Positions 4,309 through 46,987 of a stretch of 46,987 bases of DNA are shown piece by piece. The notes beneath the pieces are model-generated. The model had not been told where the DNA came from and made no database searches. It saw only the letters and a list, made by a program, of their open reading frames with translations. The first letter of the stretch is position 1. Each line of letters starts with the position of its first letter. The position numbers and the translations under genes are program-made. Where the stretch lies: NCBI GenBank assembly GCA_945877805.1, contig CAMCSM010000010.1:1-46987 (forward strand), written 5' to 3'. This DNA comes from Methylacidiphilum caldifontis (GTDB lineage Bacteria; Verrucomicrobiota; Verrucomicrobiia; Methylacidiphilales; CAMAQI01).

Positions 4309-4453
4309 CGAGTTTTTAAAGTCACTGTCTTTTCTGTTTTTAGAGACAAAGAGGCGCTTAGGTGAGTCAAAGTGACGCACTTATGAGATAGCGGAATAGC
4401 CTAATCGCTGGATAGCATAAATTCTTTTGATCCGTGTTATTTGTTCCCCCTGT

Positions 4454-4572
4454 ACAAATCTTCGATTTGGTTGTGCCCCCCTTACGCCCCCGCACCAAAC
4501 AGTTAGACCCTGTTTTCTTATTTTTCGTTCCGACGAAAAATAATGCGAAGGATTTTAAGAGTGAGGGACTAA
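4454..4572. repeat. Single-arm copy of the hairpin-rich repeat family
   Basis: Positions 4470-4513 are the reverse complement of 13248-13290 with two substitutions and one 1-nt indel. Beyond it lies a 9-bp hairpin (4519-4542, arms ATTTTTCGT and ACGAAAAAT) identical over 24 nt to 21552-21575, and the end tag AAGAGTGAGGGACTAA (4557-4572). The opposite arm is absent here, so this looks like half an element. It occupies the gene-free stretch 4228-4811, where I see no coding sequence; the rest holds the dnaK repeat and a Gre-gene promoter. Confidence 0.75.
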
Positions 4573-4783
4573 TGCACAAATAAAATCCAAAATAAAGGCA
4601 ATATTTCCTGCGGAGACGCCGCTCCGATAAGTAGCACGGAGCAGGCGAAGAGGTTTTAAATTCCGAAAATAAAGTGAATTTTGTTCCTGAATAAAAAGTG
4701 AATGCTTTTATTAAGATCTATGAGTAAATATCTGACTTTCAAAAATCTTATTTGACGATTTATTCTTTTTACCTTTCCTTTTG

Positions 4784-4792
4784 TGCTAAAAT
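4784..4792 (+). promoter_or_regulatory. Extended -10 promoter candidate of the Gre-domain gene
   Basis: TGCTAAAAT fits the extended -10 pattern TGnTATAAT with one mismatch. Transcription would start near 4799, giving a leader of about 13 nt before the ATG at 4812 and excluding an upstream in-frame TTG at 4752. No Shine-Dalgarno is visible before the ATG. Confidence 0.4.
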
Positions 4793-4811
4793 TTGGCAAG
4801 AACAACCCCCC

Positions 4812-6587
4812 ATGGAAACTCTCTCATCACGACTTGAATCATTAACTGCTGGTAAATATTGCTCCCATAAAAGTTGGGGCTTCGGAAAAGTTCGAGAGGT
4901 TGATTCAGATACGAATCAAATGATCATCGATTTCCAAACTAAAAAAGGTCATGCGATGCAGTTGGATTATGCGGTTGAGTCATTGAACTCGCATCCGGAT
5001 GATCATATTCTTGCATTGCGTTTAGATAAGCTTTCCGCCCTCAAAGCTCAGGCGGAAACCGATCCAGTTGCTGTCGTGAAGAACTGTATTCGAAGCATGG
5101 GAACGCTCGCGACTGCCGAGGGAATTCAAGGAGTTCTTTCTCCTTCTGTTATTTCGGATGCCGCATGGAAAAAATGGTGGGAATCAGCCAAACGGGCGAT
5201 GAAGAAAGATGGATTGGTTATTATTTCGACGAAAAAAGCAGAACCGCTGCGGATCATCGAAGTTCCCGTGGATGAGCCGGCAAAGGCACTCCTTGCCTTC
5301 CGTGATGCCGTCGGATCAAAAGCAGTGCTTCTTGCTGCCTCGACCTTCATGAAGAACTGGGAAGAGATGAAAGGGGAGACCGAAGAGATTCTTCTTAAAC
5401 TTCAAGAGACGATGTCGAAGACCCCCGCATCTCAGCTTTCAACGCTTCTGGAGATGGCGATTGTTCGCGAACAGATTTTAAAATTAGCAGGAAAAGCGAT
5501 CGATCAAGGATCGCACTCTTTAACCTCTTTAATCCCTCGTGATGCGCGCGGATTGGGAAATGTGTTGGATCAACTCGGAATCTCCAAACAAGAACCGATC
5601 ATCGCAACTTTACAACGACTCTTGCCTGAGGGATGGCCACGCCTTCTCTCACAGGTTCTTCCGAAAGCGAATGCCCGTACCGCAGAAGCGATCGCCTCGA
5701 CTTTCGTTGAAGCCGGTCGTGCCGAAGAGGTGCATAATGCGATCGATCGTTTAATTCGTGAACGGAATGTAACCTCAGACTTTTTGTACTGGTTCGGTAA
5801 GAATCGTCCAAAAGACTTAGAAGATTTGATCAACCCAATGCTTTTCATGGCGATCCTCTCGGTACTCGAGCGCGATATGATGGGGGAGACGAAGAAGGGA
5901 ACAAAACTTTACGAACTCCTTTTGAATGACAAAACCTTTGTCGGTGGAATGCTCCGCAATTCCCCTATGGAAGATGTCCGTGATGTGACTCGTGCGACGA
6001 TGTTGTCTCCTGTCTTTAAAGAGTTGGACAAACGCTCGTTCTTAGGAACTTTAGTGAAAATGTTCCCCGAAGTTCAATCGATGATCATCGGCGAGAAATC
6101 AACGGAGGAGACCTCATTAGTGGTTTCATGGGAGAGTTTAGAGCGTCGTAAAAAAGAACTTGAAGAAGTGGTTGTTCGAAAGATTCCTGAAAACAGTAAG
6201 GAGATCGGAATCGCCCGTTCTTATGGCGATCTTCGCGAAAACCATGAATTCAAGGCCGCAAAAGAGATGCAAGCGGTACTCATGCGCCGTAAGTCGGAAT
6301 TAGAGTCGATGTTAATTCGTGCGCGTGGAACCGATTTCAAAGGGGTCGATAGTTCGATCGTTAATATTGGAACCAAAGTCGTATTGAAAGATGTTGATAC
6401 TGGCGAAGTGCTCAACTATACGATCCTCGGGGCATGGGATAGTGAACCGACCCAAGGAATTGTTTCTTACCTGACTCCATTGGCGAAATCGATTTTAAAT
6501 AAAAAAGCCGGTTCTAAGGTTGAGATTTCCACAGACGAAGGGACTAAACGTTTTGTAACCATCGAGAAGATCGAGAGTTACAAATAA
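4812..6587 (+). CDS. greA: Long GreA/GreB-type transcript cleavage factor
   Basis: The C-terminal 150 residues form a complete Gre factor: the coiled-coil with the acidic tip motif GDLREN near residue 472, followed by the FKBP-like domain (GTKVVLKDVDTGEVLNYTILG). Gre factors rescue backtracked RNA polymerase by stimulating RNA cleavage. Ordinary GreA has about 160 aa; this protein has 591. The N-terminus (about 15-60, HKSWGFGKVREVD) looks like a small Tudor/SH3-like domain, and about 400 mostly helical residues join the two. Long Gre proteins are known from Chlamydiae and Verrucomicrobia. The ATG at 4812 is preferred to TTG 4752 because the putative promoter lies between them. Confidence 0.9.
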   Translation: METLSSRLESLTAGKYCSHKSWGFGKVREVDSDTNQMIIDFQTKKGHAMQLDYAVESLNSHPDDHILALRLDKLSALKAQAETDPVAVVKNCIRSMGTLATAEGIQGVLSPSVISDAAWKKWWESAKRAMKKDGLVIISTKKAEPLRIIEVPVDEPAKALLAFRDAVGSKAVLLAASTFMKNWEEMKGETEEILLKLQETMSKTPASQLSTLLEMAIVREQILKLAGKAIDQGSHSLTSLIPRDARGLGNVLDQLGISKQEPIIATLQRLLPEGWPRLLSQVLPKANARTAEAIASTFVEAGRAEEVHNAIDRLIRERNVTSDFLYWFGKNRPKDLEDLINPMLFMAILSVLERDMMGETKKGTKLYELLLNDKTFVGGMLRNSPMEDVRDVTRATMLSPVFKELDKRSFLGTLVKMFPEVQSMIIGEKSTEETSLVVSWESLERRKKELEEVVVRKIPENSKEIGIARSYGDLRENHEFKAAKEMQAVLMRRKSELESMLIRARGTDFKGVDSSIVNIGTKVVLKDVDTGEVLNYTILGAWDSEPTQGIVSYLTPLAKSILNKKAGSKVEISTDEGTKRFVTIEKIESYK

Positions 6588-12068: not shown

Positions 12069-12086
12069 TCTTCGATTGGATTGACT

Positions 12087-13169
12087 ATGAATTTGGCCCC
12101 GCATGTAGAGCGGCTGCGCCAGCGTTTTAAAGAATTAGAGGTAGAGCTTTCACAGCCCACTCTCTACGACAATCACTCGCGGGCCCAAGAAGTCACCCGT
12201 GAACACTCGCGCCTTGCGAAGGTGGTTCCTGAGTGTGATCGTTGGGAAAAGCTGATTCGCGAAATTCAGGAGTCTAAAAATTTAATTTATTCTGCCGAGG
12301 ATCCCGATCTCGTTTCGATGGCTCAAGAGGAGCTCCCGCTTCTGGAGCAGCAGCTCACCAGCTCTCAGGAGCAGGTTCAAATCGCTTTAATTCCACCAGA
12401 CGAAACCGACTCTCGCAATACGATTATTGAGATTCGTGCGGGGACAGGGGGAACCGAGGCGGCGATTTTTGCGGGGGATCTTTATCGGATGTATTGCCGA
12501 TATGCCGAGCGTGTGGGGTGGAAGATCGATGATATGGAGTCGAGCCCTGGCGATATCGGCGGTTATAAAGAGATTATTTTTCAGATGAATGGTCAGGACG
12601 TTTATAAACATATGCGTTTTGAAAGTGGGGTTCATCGAGTGCAACGAGTGCCGATGACGGAGGCTCAAGGGCGGATTCATACCTCCGCGGCGACCGTGGC
12701 CGTTTTACCAGAGGCTAAAGAGGTCGATGTGGTCATTCGTCAGGATGAGCTTCGAATTGAGGTTTGTCGTTCGGGAGGAAATGGGGGACAAGGGGTCAAT
12801 ACCACTGATTCAGCGGTTCAAATTTTGCACTATCCCTCTGGTTTGATCGTTCGCTGTCAAGATACCCGCTCGCAGATTAAAAACCGGGAGCGGGCGATGG
12901 GAATTTTAAGGTCTCGTTTGTTGAAGGCAAAGCAAGATGAAGAGGCGGCACGATATGCCCAACATCGAAAGAGCCAGATTGGAACCGGCGATCGTAATGA
13001 AAAGATTCGGACGTATAACTATCCGCAAAATCGTATCACCGACCATCGAATTAATTTTTCCGCATTTAATCTTCCTGATTTTATGGATGGTAATATCGGG
13101 GAGATGGTGCATCAGCTGGTTTCAGCGGATATGCATGATAAGCTTAGTGCTTTGATGGATTCGAAGTAA
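12087..13169 (+). CDS. prfA: Peptide chain release factor 1
   Basis: Terminates translation at UAA and UAG. The codon-recognition tripeptide is P-M-T (in VQRVPMTEAQGR), fitting the RF1 P-x-T pattern rather than the SPF of RF2, and the catalytic GGQ sits in GGNGGQGVNTTDSAV. The 360 aa from ATG 12087 are the usual length; a TTG six nt upstream is possible. It follows rpmE by 18 nt. No prmC methyltransferase gene follows. Confidence 0.96.
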   Translation: MNLAPHVERLRQRFKELEVELSQPTLYDNHSRAQEVTREHSRLAKVVPECDRWEKLIREIQESKNLIYSAEDPDLVSMAQEELPLLEQQLTSSQEQVQIALIPPDETDSRNTIIEIRAGTGGTEAAIFAGDLYRMYCRYAERVGWKIDDMESSPGDIGGYKEIIFQMNGQDVYKHMRFESGVHRVQRVPMTEAQGRIHTSAATVAVLPEAKEVDVVIRQDELRIEVCRSGGNGGQGVNTTDSAVQILHYPSGLIVRCQDTRSQIKNRERAMGILRSRLLKAKQDEEAARYAQHRKSQIGTGDRNEKIRTYNYPQNRITDHRINFSAFNLPDFMDGNIGEMVHQLVSADMHDKLSALMDSK

Positions 13170-13211
13170 TTTTTCGGTTATCCCTTACTTTTTGAAAATA
13201 AAAAGAGATCT

Positions 13212-13428
13212 CTAAGGAAAACCATTCGTAAAACGAATTATCAGAGAACAGGGTCTAATTGTTTGGTGCAGGGGCGTAGGGGGGCACAACTCTGCAGGGA
13301 AGCAGGAAAAATACTTCTGTTTTTTTGATTTTTTTGCAAATCGAAGATTTGGTTGTGCCCCTCTATGCCCCCGCACCAAACATTTAGCATCCTGTTCATC
13401 GAAGTTGCTTCGCAACGGTTTTCCTTAG
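13212..13428. repeat. Complete 217-bp inverted-repeat element, family reference copy
   Basis: Arms 13212-13290 and 13352-13428 are reverse complements over nearly 80 nt, with perfect outer ends (CTAAGGAAAACC) and a well-conserved inner block (GTTTGGTGC...GGGGCACAAC). Each arm holds its own small hairpin: ATTCGT-AAA-ACGAAT on the left and GTTGC-TTC-GCAAC on the right, so sequences differ but pairing is kept. The centre includes GCAGGGAAGCAGGAA (13294-13308), found inverted at 32830-32844. No transposase gene is present. It fills most of 13170-13462, between prfA and a convergent gene, and looks like a MITE or REPIN-like unit. Confidence 0.85.
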
Positions 13429-13462
13429 TTCCTGATTTCCCTATTTTAAAATCTCTTTGGTT

Positions 13463-14257
13463 TTAATGGCTGTCTGTCCATTGATAGAGCTCATTGAGTT
13501 GCTCCTGAATGTAAGGAACCTCAACATTCGAGATGAGGATTCGATTGAGTGGCTCAGGGGATTCGATTTCTTGAATCGTCGCTGGGGCCTGCCAGGTGTT
13601 GCGAATGAGATGCATCAGTTCGAGGAGTGAAATCGCGGGGTCTGTCGCGGGCTGTAGTAATTTTTTCTCAGAAAATTCACCGTTCATGATCCGCTCTGCA
13701 ATTTTAGCCCATTGCAGCGTGGTAATTCCGTTGAATCGGTGATTTGAGTAACCGGAAAAATCTCCTCCTTGAGCGAGAGTCCAACTCAGCAGATTTTGAG
13801 TCGTTTTAACTTCCGGTCCAATCAGGCAAGCTCGGATGATGAAATGAAAAGGTCTGGAGATCGCCTCTTCTGCCATTTTTTTGGCAAGACCGTAATCCTC
13901 ATCGGGATTTGAAGGATCCTCCGCCCAATAAGGACCGCCCCCTCGTTTAGGGAAAACAGCATCGCTGCTCGATTGAATGAGACCAATTCCATCGGGGAGT
14001 GCTTTTGCCAGGAGAAAGGGGAGGGAGAAGTTTACCTCCCATTGAAGTTGAGTTGAGGTTTCTGGTTTCACCGCAACTGAGGCGCAATTAATCACCCATT
14101 CCGGCTGGAGTTGCAGGAGCTCATCAAACCAGACCTCCGCTTCTGCGACAGAGTAGCTTTTGGTAACAGGGAGGCATTCATGGCCAAGGCTTTTAAAATA
14201 GGCATCTAAAAAGTGACCGAGCATGCCTTGGTGTCCAATAATGCAGATGCGACTCAT
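13463..14257 (-). CDS. RmlD-like NAD(P)-dependent sugar reductase
   Basis: Short-chain dehydrogenase of the extended/RmlD type, 264 aa. The Rossmann motif GHQGMLG is at residues 8-14, a NCASVAV segment follows, and the catalytic YGLAK has Tyr122 and Lys126. RmlD reduces dTDP-4-keto-rhamnose, but this short, divergent protein has no rmlABC neighbours, so its substrate is open. With manA, the gmd pair and the UER1-like gene it suggests deoxysugar synthesis. Confidence 0.72.
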   Translation of the reverse strand: MSRICIIGHQGMLGHFLDAYFKSLGHECLPVTKSYSVAEAEVWFDELLQLQPEWVINCASVAVKPETSTQLQWEVNFSLPFLLAKALPDGIGLIQSSSDAVFPKRGGGPYWAEDPSNPDEDYGLAKKMAEEAISRPFHFIIRACLIGPEVKTTQNLLSWTLAQGGDFSGYSNHRFNGITTLQWAKIAERIMNGEFSEKKLLQPATDPAISLLELMHLIRNTWQAPATIQEIESPEPLNRILISNVEVPYIQEQLNELYQWTDSH

Positions 14258-21421: not shown

Positions 21422-21603
21422 GATCTCTTAGGAAAAGGATCGTGAAACGATAAGGTAAAGCCGCTGGAAGCGGAAATAATTTTGGTACAGAGGGAGATGG
21501 GGGTACAACTTTGCCGGAAAAAATTCTGTGACCCCCTGCTTGGCAGGGTCATATTTTTCGTTCCGACGAAAAATATTTGGTTTCGGTCTTTGACCGATTT
21601 ATG
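21422..21603. repeat. Divergent copy of the hairpin-rich repeat element
   Basis: It begins with GATCTCTTAGGAAAA, which matches 13207-13221 at 14 of 15 positions, followed by a hairpin ATCGT-GAAA-CGAT in the place of the hairpin in the reference copy. A second hairpin (CCGCT-GGA-AGCGG) is inserted, then the block TTTGGTACAG...GGGGGTACAAC aligns with the reference arm. The right half holds a bulged GGGTCA/TGACCC hairpin, the 24-nt hairpin shared with 4519-4542 (21552-21575), and the 25-nt repeat at 21579-21603. It spans the gap between tadC and manA, where no gene was seen. Confidence 0.75.
21579..21603. repeat. Copy 2 of the 25-nt hairpin repeat
   Basis: GGTTTCGGTCTTTGACCG followed by ATTTATG, with a perfect 5-bp hairpin around TTT. 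It is the best-paired copy and ends the element at 21422-21603. The other copies are at 107-131 and 32046-32070. Confidence 0.65.
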
Positions 21604-21649
21604 TTAAATTGAATTGAACGGTCGGTATTATTTGAGCATGATTTTGGTT

Positions 21650-32009: not shown

Positions 32010-32070
32010 TTAGTCCCTCACTGTTTTCATTGAGGAGATATCCTTGGTTTCGCTCTTTGACCGATTTATA
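32010..32070. repeat. Repeat-family fragment with copy 3 of the 25-nt repeat
   Basis: It begins with TTAGTCCCTCACT (32010-32022), the inverse of the tag at 4557-4572 and 17236-17251, and ends with the 25-nt hairpin repeat (32046-32070), which matches 21579-21603 at 23 of 25 positions. It lies directly after the UER1-like gene. Confidence 0.6.
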
Positions 32071-32113
32071 ATTAGATTTGATTTCCCTCTTTTTTGTGAC
32101 AATTTAGCGACAA

Positions 32114-32602: not shown

Positions 32603-32859
32603 GACTCTCTAAGGAGCCGACTCCAAAAGGGTTTTGGAGGAGACGATCCGACAGAGGAGGAGATTGCAGGACGCAATCCGAATGAGACGGGCGTCGAATG
32701 AGTCAACATGGAGTTGGAGATAAGCTCAAAGTGTCGGCGTCCACCTACGTTTTCTTTCAAAACTACGGCGGATCTTCGACAGGAAAGCAGGAAAAAACTG
32801 ATTTTGAAATAGGAATATATCGGTTAAAATTCCTGCTTCCCTGCCTTCCTTAGAGAGTC
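32603..32859. repeat. Inverted-repeat element with several internal hairpins
   Basis: Perfect 13-bp terminal inverted repeat (GACTCTCTAAGGA at 32603-32615 and its complement at 32847-32859), related in its CTAAGGA end to the element at 13212-13428. Inside are hairpins CTCCAAAA-GGG-TTTTGGAG (32621-32639) and GATTGC-AGGAC-GCAATC (32662-32678), and an inner pair around AAGCAGGAA (32785-32793, 32830-32838). The 15-nt string at 32830-32844 is the inverse of 13294-13308. It fills the 303-nt gap between the Nudix gene and uvrC; no coding sequence is seen. Confidence 0.75.
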
Positions 32860-46769: not shown

Positions 46770-46834
46770 TTAAAATACAATTTTTACCGTGGGGAAACCA
46801 AGAGGAGCGTTAACCTAAAAACCGCAGATGATTT

Positions 46835-46969
46835 AACCACGGATAACACAGATATCACGGATTGAGGAGGTTATGAAAATGGAGTTTCTTTTTTTTATTC
46901 ACCCAGAGGGTGAAGTTCTTCTTTTATGTAAATCCCTGAAAATCCGTGTGATCCGCGTTATCCGTGGTT
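46835..46969. repeat. 135-nt inverted-repeat unit at the window end
   Basis: Arms 46835-46863 and 46941-46969 are reverse complements at 25 of 29 positions (AACCACGGATAAC at one end, GTTATCCGTGGTT at the other). Between them lies a small hairpin (TTCACCC-AGA-GGGTGAA). The CACGGAT-type sequence is a widespread bacterial intergenic repeat, often found near small genes. No gene is inside. It is unrelated to the family at 13212-13428. Confidence 0.75.
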
Positions 46970-46987
46970 CCAACTGCTTTTTCTAGG

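Follow-up and report, generated by a model that had tools for sequence, protein, structure and literature searches.

The 217-bp palindrome at positions 13212–13428 of the window (the whole 46,987-nucleotide stretch of Methylacidiphilum caldifontis DNA analyzed here, contig CAMCSM010000010.1) is not a single mobile element but a patchwork of small folding cassettes inserted into older palindromic repeats. At least three repeats make up the composite, with two host palindromes, P and N, and one copy of a cassette, E, in each arm. The unit that repeats in the genome is the single arm, the 75–95-nt cassette E, and not the palindrome. A sequence-only reading of the window had taken the 217 bp as a complete element and the unit of a new family; however, E arms face each other at only two loci, the window copy and C6:23103-23320, and the best other single match to the 217-bp sequence spans 135 of the 217 bp.

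Organization of the window palindrome

The palindrome is intergenic and carries no transposase, both as first described, and it lies between a peptide-chain release factor gene (12081–13169, forward strand, with PCRF and RF-1 domains) and an RmlD/epimerase-like gene (13463–14257, reverse strand), the two being convergent. The pairing of its arms over nearly 80 nt is also borne out, with 77.5% pairing over 80 columns between 13212–13290 and 13352–13428, and complementarity of 89% in the inner 36 nt and 93% in the outer 15 nt. The predicted DNA fold has an energy of -65.6 kcal/mol, compared with -24.0 ± 3.4 for shuffled sequences (z = -12.2; 0 of 200 shuffles as good). The arms pair over ~80 nt because each carries one E, in opposite orientations. 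The termini do form a perfect 12-bp inverted repeat (CTAAGGAAAACC / GGTTTTCCTTAG), but these are host/cassette junctions and not transposon ends: CTAAGGAA belongs to the host palindromes (P/N) and AACC to E, because 13193–13219 is a P end, 13220 onward is E, and 13421–13464 is an N end. The true extent of the repeat sequence is about 13193–13464, beyond the boundaries first drawn, and the 217-bp arrangement in full is essentially unique in the genome.

The leftmost part is a P-type host end (...AAAGAGATCTCTAAGGAA; 13193–13219, forward strand), the 'cap' of a palindromic host repeat, which has a 34-bp match to locus L130 of the related genome G001 and includes AAAGAAATCTCTAAGGAA, also present in L132, L015 and L134. 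In sampled DNA the sequence after the cap TCTCTWAGGAA is P's own at 21 ends (TCTCTWAGGAA-NGCANGAA), E in six true cases and a cousin cassette, K, in six true cases, always from the same base; one automatic assignment in each cassette class was removed as not a true cassette. The left E cassette (AACC ... CACAACTCT; 13220–13293, forward strand, 74 bp) lies within P between AGGAA and GCAGGGAAGCAGG, is matched by nhmmer and by a covariance model (100.6 bits, E = 1.7e-16), and has junctions set by comparison with the P end at window position 32846 on the reverse strand. It contains hairpin 1 (ATTCGTAAAACGAAT; 13224–13238, forward strand), which is helix 1 in our alignment A1, and stem 2 (GTT(TG)GTGC / GCACAAC around a G-rich loop; 13261–13290, forward strand), which RNAalifold recovers without guidance and which shows compensatory changes. 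A small hairpin, CTGC-AGGGAA-GCAG (13292–13305, forward strand), has host P as its second half, and there are similar junctions in L019, L021, L086 and L089.

The centre of the palindrome (GCAGGGAAGCAGGAAAAATACTTCTGTTTTTTTGATTTTTT; 13294–13333) derives from the P and N hosts: it has a 15-bp exact match, GCAGGGAAGCAGGAA, to the P end at 32830–32844, and N copies read ACCTCTGAATTTTTTGTTTT. The right E cassette (AACC-GTTGCGAAGCAAC-...-CAACC-AAATCTTCGATTTG; 13334–13420, reverse strand, covariance model match of 87.7 bits) is inverted and sits in N after AAGGAA, as read from N copies empty of E in L129 and L141 and an E-occupied N in L009. Its parts, all on the reverse strand, are hairpin 2 (CAAATC-TTC-GATTTG; 13337–13351), which most A1 members have, stem 2 (13352–13381; RNAalifold and paired-change counts) and hairpin 1 (GTTGCGAAGCAAC; 13404–13416; A1 alignment and paired-change counts), a compensated variant of the left one. 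The N-type host end (AAAACCAAAGAGATTTTAAAATAGGGAAATCAGGAACTAAGGAA; 13421–13464, reverse strand) is repeated in the related genome G002 at 86–100% identity.

Three further matches to the arms had been noted in the window, and all are real, but only that at 4470–4513 (88%, E = 2e-15) is to the same cassette, the second E of the window (4448–4552, reverse strand). The match at 21422–21510 is a P cap (TCTCTTAGGAA) followed by K (AAAAGG-hairpin...GGTAC...GTACAACT; cap and cassette at 21424–21510, forward strand), and the 15-bp match at 32830–32844 is to the host part, a P-family end with no cassette (32830–32856, reverse strand). We note that the window also has a further palindromic family, T (TAAATCGGTCAAAGACCGAAACC...), at 21551–21609 and 32021–32076, adjoining TATTTTTCGTTCCGACGAAAAATA hairpins and TAGTCCCTCACTGTTTGAATTCTTCGCA motifs, and a ~175 bp member of palindrome family C (CCACGGAT...ATCCGTGG) at 46812–46987. 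In a 611-aa protein encoded at 4752–6587, the GreA/GreB domains are confined to the final ~150 residues; at E 1e-3, Pfam gives no match to the long region N-terminal to them.

Cassette E is a two-helix unit present mostly as single copies

The layout of E is AACC, hairpin 1, ACAGGGTCT, GTTTG-stem-G-rich loop-stem-CAAC and usually hairpin 2; in alignment A1, which contains 27 diverse copies, the consensus opens with GGAA-(A/T)ACC, has a linker between hairpin 1 and ACAGGGTCT, reads CAACC at the end of stem 2, and mostly includes hairpin 2. The core of both helices is recovered by RNAalifold without guidance. In A1, 96.2% of helix cells are paired and six pairs have two-sided changes (three in helix 1 and three in stem 2), with 27 two-sided-change cells compared with 8.6 in shuffles. 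Covariation is 0.265, against 0.141 ± 0.013 for shuffled alignments and at most 0.119 for slid controls. Both helices are thus backed by covariation, and since the E copies are related sequences these figures are supportive and not a formal probability. In a variant, E2, stem 2 reads GTTTGGAAT...ATTCAACC.

The palindrome had been suggested to be common in the genome, and a search of its own genome (G000; 2.94 Mb in 169 contigs) with the 217-bp sequence confirms this with 73 HSPs that merge to ~40 loci, well beyond a few copies. There are 61 arm matches in 646 kb of sampled DNA, and 992 kb of sequence from G000, chosen partly around known copies, contains 45 non-redundant E units and 43 of K. 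Four of these 45 E units are in facing pairs and 41 are not, and almost all E copies are single arms in differing hosts. These copy numbers are underestimates because the composites break the assembly at contig ends. About twelve E copies are within 160 bp of a contig end (C15, C68, C83, C97, C103, C124, C147, C154, C168 and others).

Neither E nor K has a preferred orientation relative to replication (leading versus lagging strand 13:14 for E and 17:13 for K, where skew is strong, with the strand assigned from strong GC skew of the contigs), and E has none relative to neighbouring genes (++ 4, -- 8, +- 7, -+ 7). Tandem head-to-tail copies of E, or of a hairpin-2 unit (GGGGCACAACC-hairpin-GTAC), are present in L020 (1244–1361), L025 (254–428) and L194 (1020–1367), and may represent a second growth mode of the cassette.

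Cassettes are nested within several host families

A 447-kb sample contains 81 repeat segments that account for 2% of the sequence and belong to several families: M (CCCATTTCTTGCATTAGAAC... ends), N, P, C (CCACGGAT...) and T (TAAATCGGTCAAAGACCG...), plus the cassettes E and K. M has 96 end matches genome-wide, terminal inverted repeats (CCCATTTCTTGCA ends), and 5-bp target site duplications (TTAAA, TTCAA, ATAAA, ATAAT) in five of about nine copies; a duplication is also present where M is inserted into T (GGTTTAT shared). The palindromes N and P have no coding capacity. E and K are found within at least five other repeat families, usually right after GG(A)A.

Exact junctions were read by aligning repeats with and without the insert. 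Where E is the insert, it occupies 90 bp in K (with GGA replaced), 88–90 bp in N (TTT or TTTAG replaced) and ~74 bp in P (1 bp replaced); T hosts an E-like unit of 71 bp (TA replaced), and E itself hosts the E2 variant as an insert of 94 bp. K is present in M and C as an insert of 76–79 bp, with CTTT or GG replaced. There is no target duplication at the E and K junctions, and instead 1–5 bp of host sequence are replaced. The cassette start, A-A-x-A-C-C, lies immediately after GG or GGA in all but one of the six host contexts; in the remaining one, the C host, the junction is AACCAC|AAAAGG, without GGA. Nesting reaches up to four levels (P>C>K>E). E has the same 5′ start in different hosts, two conserved helices, no target duplication and 1–5 replaced host bases. 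Loop targeting of the insertions was considered and is not claimed, as some insertion points are in stems of the predicted host folds. The nesting is a record of the order of insertion, and the presence of occupied and unoccupied hosts within one genome gives base-level resolution of the junctions of very small mobile DNAs, something seldom achievable.

Distribution and differences among genomes

The closest relatives of G000 are two genomes of the same genus, G001 and G002, the latter giving the same matches as the MAG 'Methylacidiphilum sp. Phi'. Pieces of the 217-bp sequence are present in both, and among 57 relatives a single weak 36-bp piece lies outside the genus. A covariance model of one arm identifies copies in the three genomes of the genus (at least 34, 13 and 17) and none in 113 further relatives or in 288 other genomes of the phylum. 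The counts are minima, as scoring was confined to the best candidates and many copies lie at contig ends. Family C is shared by the three genomes of the genus, and at E 1e-6 none of the other relatives among the 95 tested has it. A 22-nt core has no match among viral contigs, and its matches in the genome collection are to five contigs of Methylacidiphilum sp. Phi and to one contig of Legionella; the latter match is limited to the 22 bases, about chance expectation, in a genome where no element was found, and was discarded. Among the genomes searched, the layered pattern of cassettes in palindromes is thus limited to one genus.

Repeat-bearing loci differ between the species, and these differences are insertions or deletions of whole repeat clusters. 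At the window locus, the genes on either side are 92% and 87% identical in G002, where only 12–13 bp separate the matched parts compared with ~282 in the window; the segment missing from the orthologous site is 13176–13457. This empty site agrees with the proposal that the repeat was formerly mobile, and comparison of the two sites reveals no target duplication at the window copy. The choice between insertion and deletion at this locus is a matter of interpretation, and a deletion in G002 is possible because the 12 bases of the empty site, AAATACAAGAAC, which adjoin TGGTTTT, look like a host end. In G001 the flanking genes are on different contigs, making it uninformative for this site. A comparison over 20 kb of C1 provides two other examples: at one site P>C>K>E nesting takes up 578 bp, compared with 44 bp in G002, and at a second it is G002 that has the longer sequence, 342 bp against 4 bp in G000. 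At one further locus N is present in G002 and absent from G000.

Transposase candidates

We found no transposase in the genome that matches E, K or the composite, and no IS-sized element with ends related to those of the palindrome. Two Y1 transposase genes are present, neither with E at its sides in the available sequence. One encodes a 150-aa RAYT in L084 (G000:C20), between ABC-transporter genes, and has at its sides a separate set of inverted 34-bp REPs (GGACGACTTCCACGTCGTCC...; 1349–1382, 1881–1914 and 1924–1953), which are unrelated to E; this is an ordinary REP/RAYT locus. The other, a 320-aa Y1-type transposase in L167 (G000:C40:21328-22287), is not bordered by an inverted repeat as far as the available sequence reaches, its contig ending at the gene start. 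A dispersed repeat (CGACCCTTCGGGTCGTCCACAACC...GGAACGCCCTTTACA), with at least five further occurrences, makes up the first ~50 codons of this gene, and in L022 a fragment of the repeat replaces the linker of an E copy. The fragment suggested a link between E and the transposase, but this was rejected, because it belongs to a separate repeat from which the beginning of the 320-aa gene is also built. No convergent pair of M ends was seen to frame a transposase; the only 2.7-kb pair observed holds ordinary genes, and the assembly breaks at repeats.

Possible origins of the composite

The reading that we favour, with moderate confidence, is that E and K are small structured cassettes hitch-hiking in MITE-like palindromes. 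P and N, as MITE-like hairpin repeats, would supply the outer ends and centre of the composite, and E and K would be non-autonomous, dependent for insertion on a trans-acting enzyme or repair reaction that recognizes their folded single strand; the host palindromes would afterwards carry and multiply them, giving the nested layers. The nearest model for the insertion step is HUH transposition of the IS200/IS605-RAYT type, and such a single-strand route is possible. However, neither Y1 gene is tied to E, the C host junction lacks the GGA of a fixed motif, and 1–5 host bases are replaced, whereas HUH transposition should remove none. E and K also lack a leading/lagging bias, although movement of a double-stranded host would erase one. 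Since there is no strand preference and no E beside the Y1 genes, we tie insertion to no particular enzyme and give substantial weight to recombination, in which E, K, M, N and P are modules shuffled by template switching, microhomology-mediated repair or hairpin gene conversion at GGAA-type microhomology, with no dedicated enzyme for E. The replacement of 1–5 bp at every cassette junction, the GG(A)A common to host and cassette edge, the tandemly duplicated hairpin units in L020, L025 and L194, and the foreign fragment in place of the E linker in L022 all fit such shuffling. Against it, the left junction is at the identical base across different hosts, and some 40 dispersed loci of one unit would be hard to reach by local repair alone. 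We regard shuffling as possible rather than probable.

The alternatives that treat the palindrome or its arms as a familiar type of element fare less well. The original view, a classical MITE that has terminal inverted repeats and relies on a transposase acting in trans, accounts for the perfect 12-bp ends, the palindromic form, the intergenic position and the empty site in G002, but is largely refuted and now improbable: the ends divide into host and cassette parts, full-length copies sharing the inverted ends are lacking, with two facing pairs among 45 E units, the window copy has no target duplication, and we found no IS-sized element with related ends. The likeness to REPINs, inverted REP doublets moved by a RAYT, draws on the inverted pair of hairpin-bearing arms and the two Y1/RAYT-like genes; however, inverted doublets predominate in 17 of 20 REP classes (PMC3116915), whereas E is mostly single, is a 75–95-nt unit with two helices and not a short hairpin tagged with GTAG/CGTC, and the 150-aa RAYT has REPs of its own, so this too is improbable, if marginally less so. 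Conserved and covarying helices, and the position of the window copy between convergent genes, might suggest a cis-acting RNA (a terminator, an mRNA-stability element or a small RNA) that spread through its usefulness. But most E copies are nested in other repeats, no Rfam family matches in the window at the gathering threshold, and the absence of a gene-orientation bias speaks against a fixed regulatory RNA, which we consider very improbable.

Under the favoured reading of structured cassettes carried in host palindromes, E and K are probably selfish, and no role for neighbouring genes is indicated. Tentatively, they might be the founders of a minimal class of mobile DNA, of 75–95 nt, with a covarying two-helix fold but no terminal inverted repeats or target site duplications, whose insertion after GG(A)A, via a structure-reading enzyme, would favour other palindromic repeats as targets, E and K themselves among them. 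If the structured-cassette reading holds, the fold, start motif and GG(A)A junction offer a target for finding an enzyme that moves palindromic repeats lacking a known transposase. The composites, which sit at many contig ends, probably help to fragment assemblies of genomes of this genus.

Comparison with known systems

Bacterial MITEs such as RUP, NEMIS/Correia and ERIC resemble host M in its terminal inverted repeats and 5-bp duplications, and N and P as non-coding palindromes, but E and K have neither inverted ends nor duplications, and no parent IS was found. Non-autonomous elements derived from IS200/IS605 (e.g. PATEs) make no duplication, insert beside a short left-hand motif, and have subterminal hairpins on one strand. 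E and K are comparable in their subterminal hairpins, in the absence of a target duplication and in a start beside GG(A)A, seen for five of the six hosts; they differ in replacing 1–5 host bases, showing no replication-strand bias and having no matching transposase identified. With the REP/REPIN-RAYT and TIR-TIRYT systems the repeats share a short, palindromic, non-autonomous nature; however, E has no GTAG/CGTC tag (AACC precedes hairpin 1 in A1), is dominated by singlets, is longer with two helices, and flanks no Y1 gene that we could see. Pneumococcal BOX repeats are modular. They differ from the repeats described here, as do RUP and SPRITE, in sequence and in phylum, and the likeness is one of behaviour, with small repeats inserted into each other in clusters. 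E and K are in at least five host families, with a fixed junction type and up to four nesting levels.

Several unrelated small structured intergenic repeats cluster and insert mutually in Streptococcus pneumoniae (BOX, RUP and SPRITE; PMC10969869, section 3.3). REPs within other palindromes have been reported (e.g. in H. neapolitanus and T. roseum; PMC3733652), so that small repeats inserting into one another are already known, and Verrucomicrobia carry REPs (PMC3116915, PMC3733652). The genome paper for Methylacidiphilum fumariolicum describes repeats, with dispersed ones filtered at 500 bp and 95% identity (PMC4210602), and repeats of the size of E are outside its scope because of this filter. 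In agreement with the initial impression of an undescribed family, we found no description of the E, K or host sequences in the open-licence literature. What seems to be new here is the depth of nesting, the base-exact junctions in several hosts, and a covarying two-helix cassette without inverted ends.
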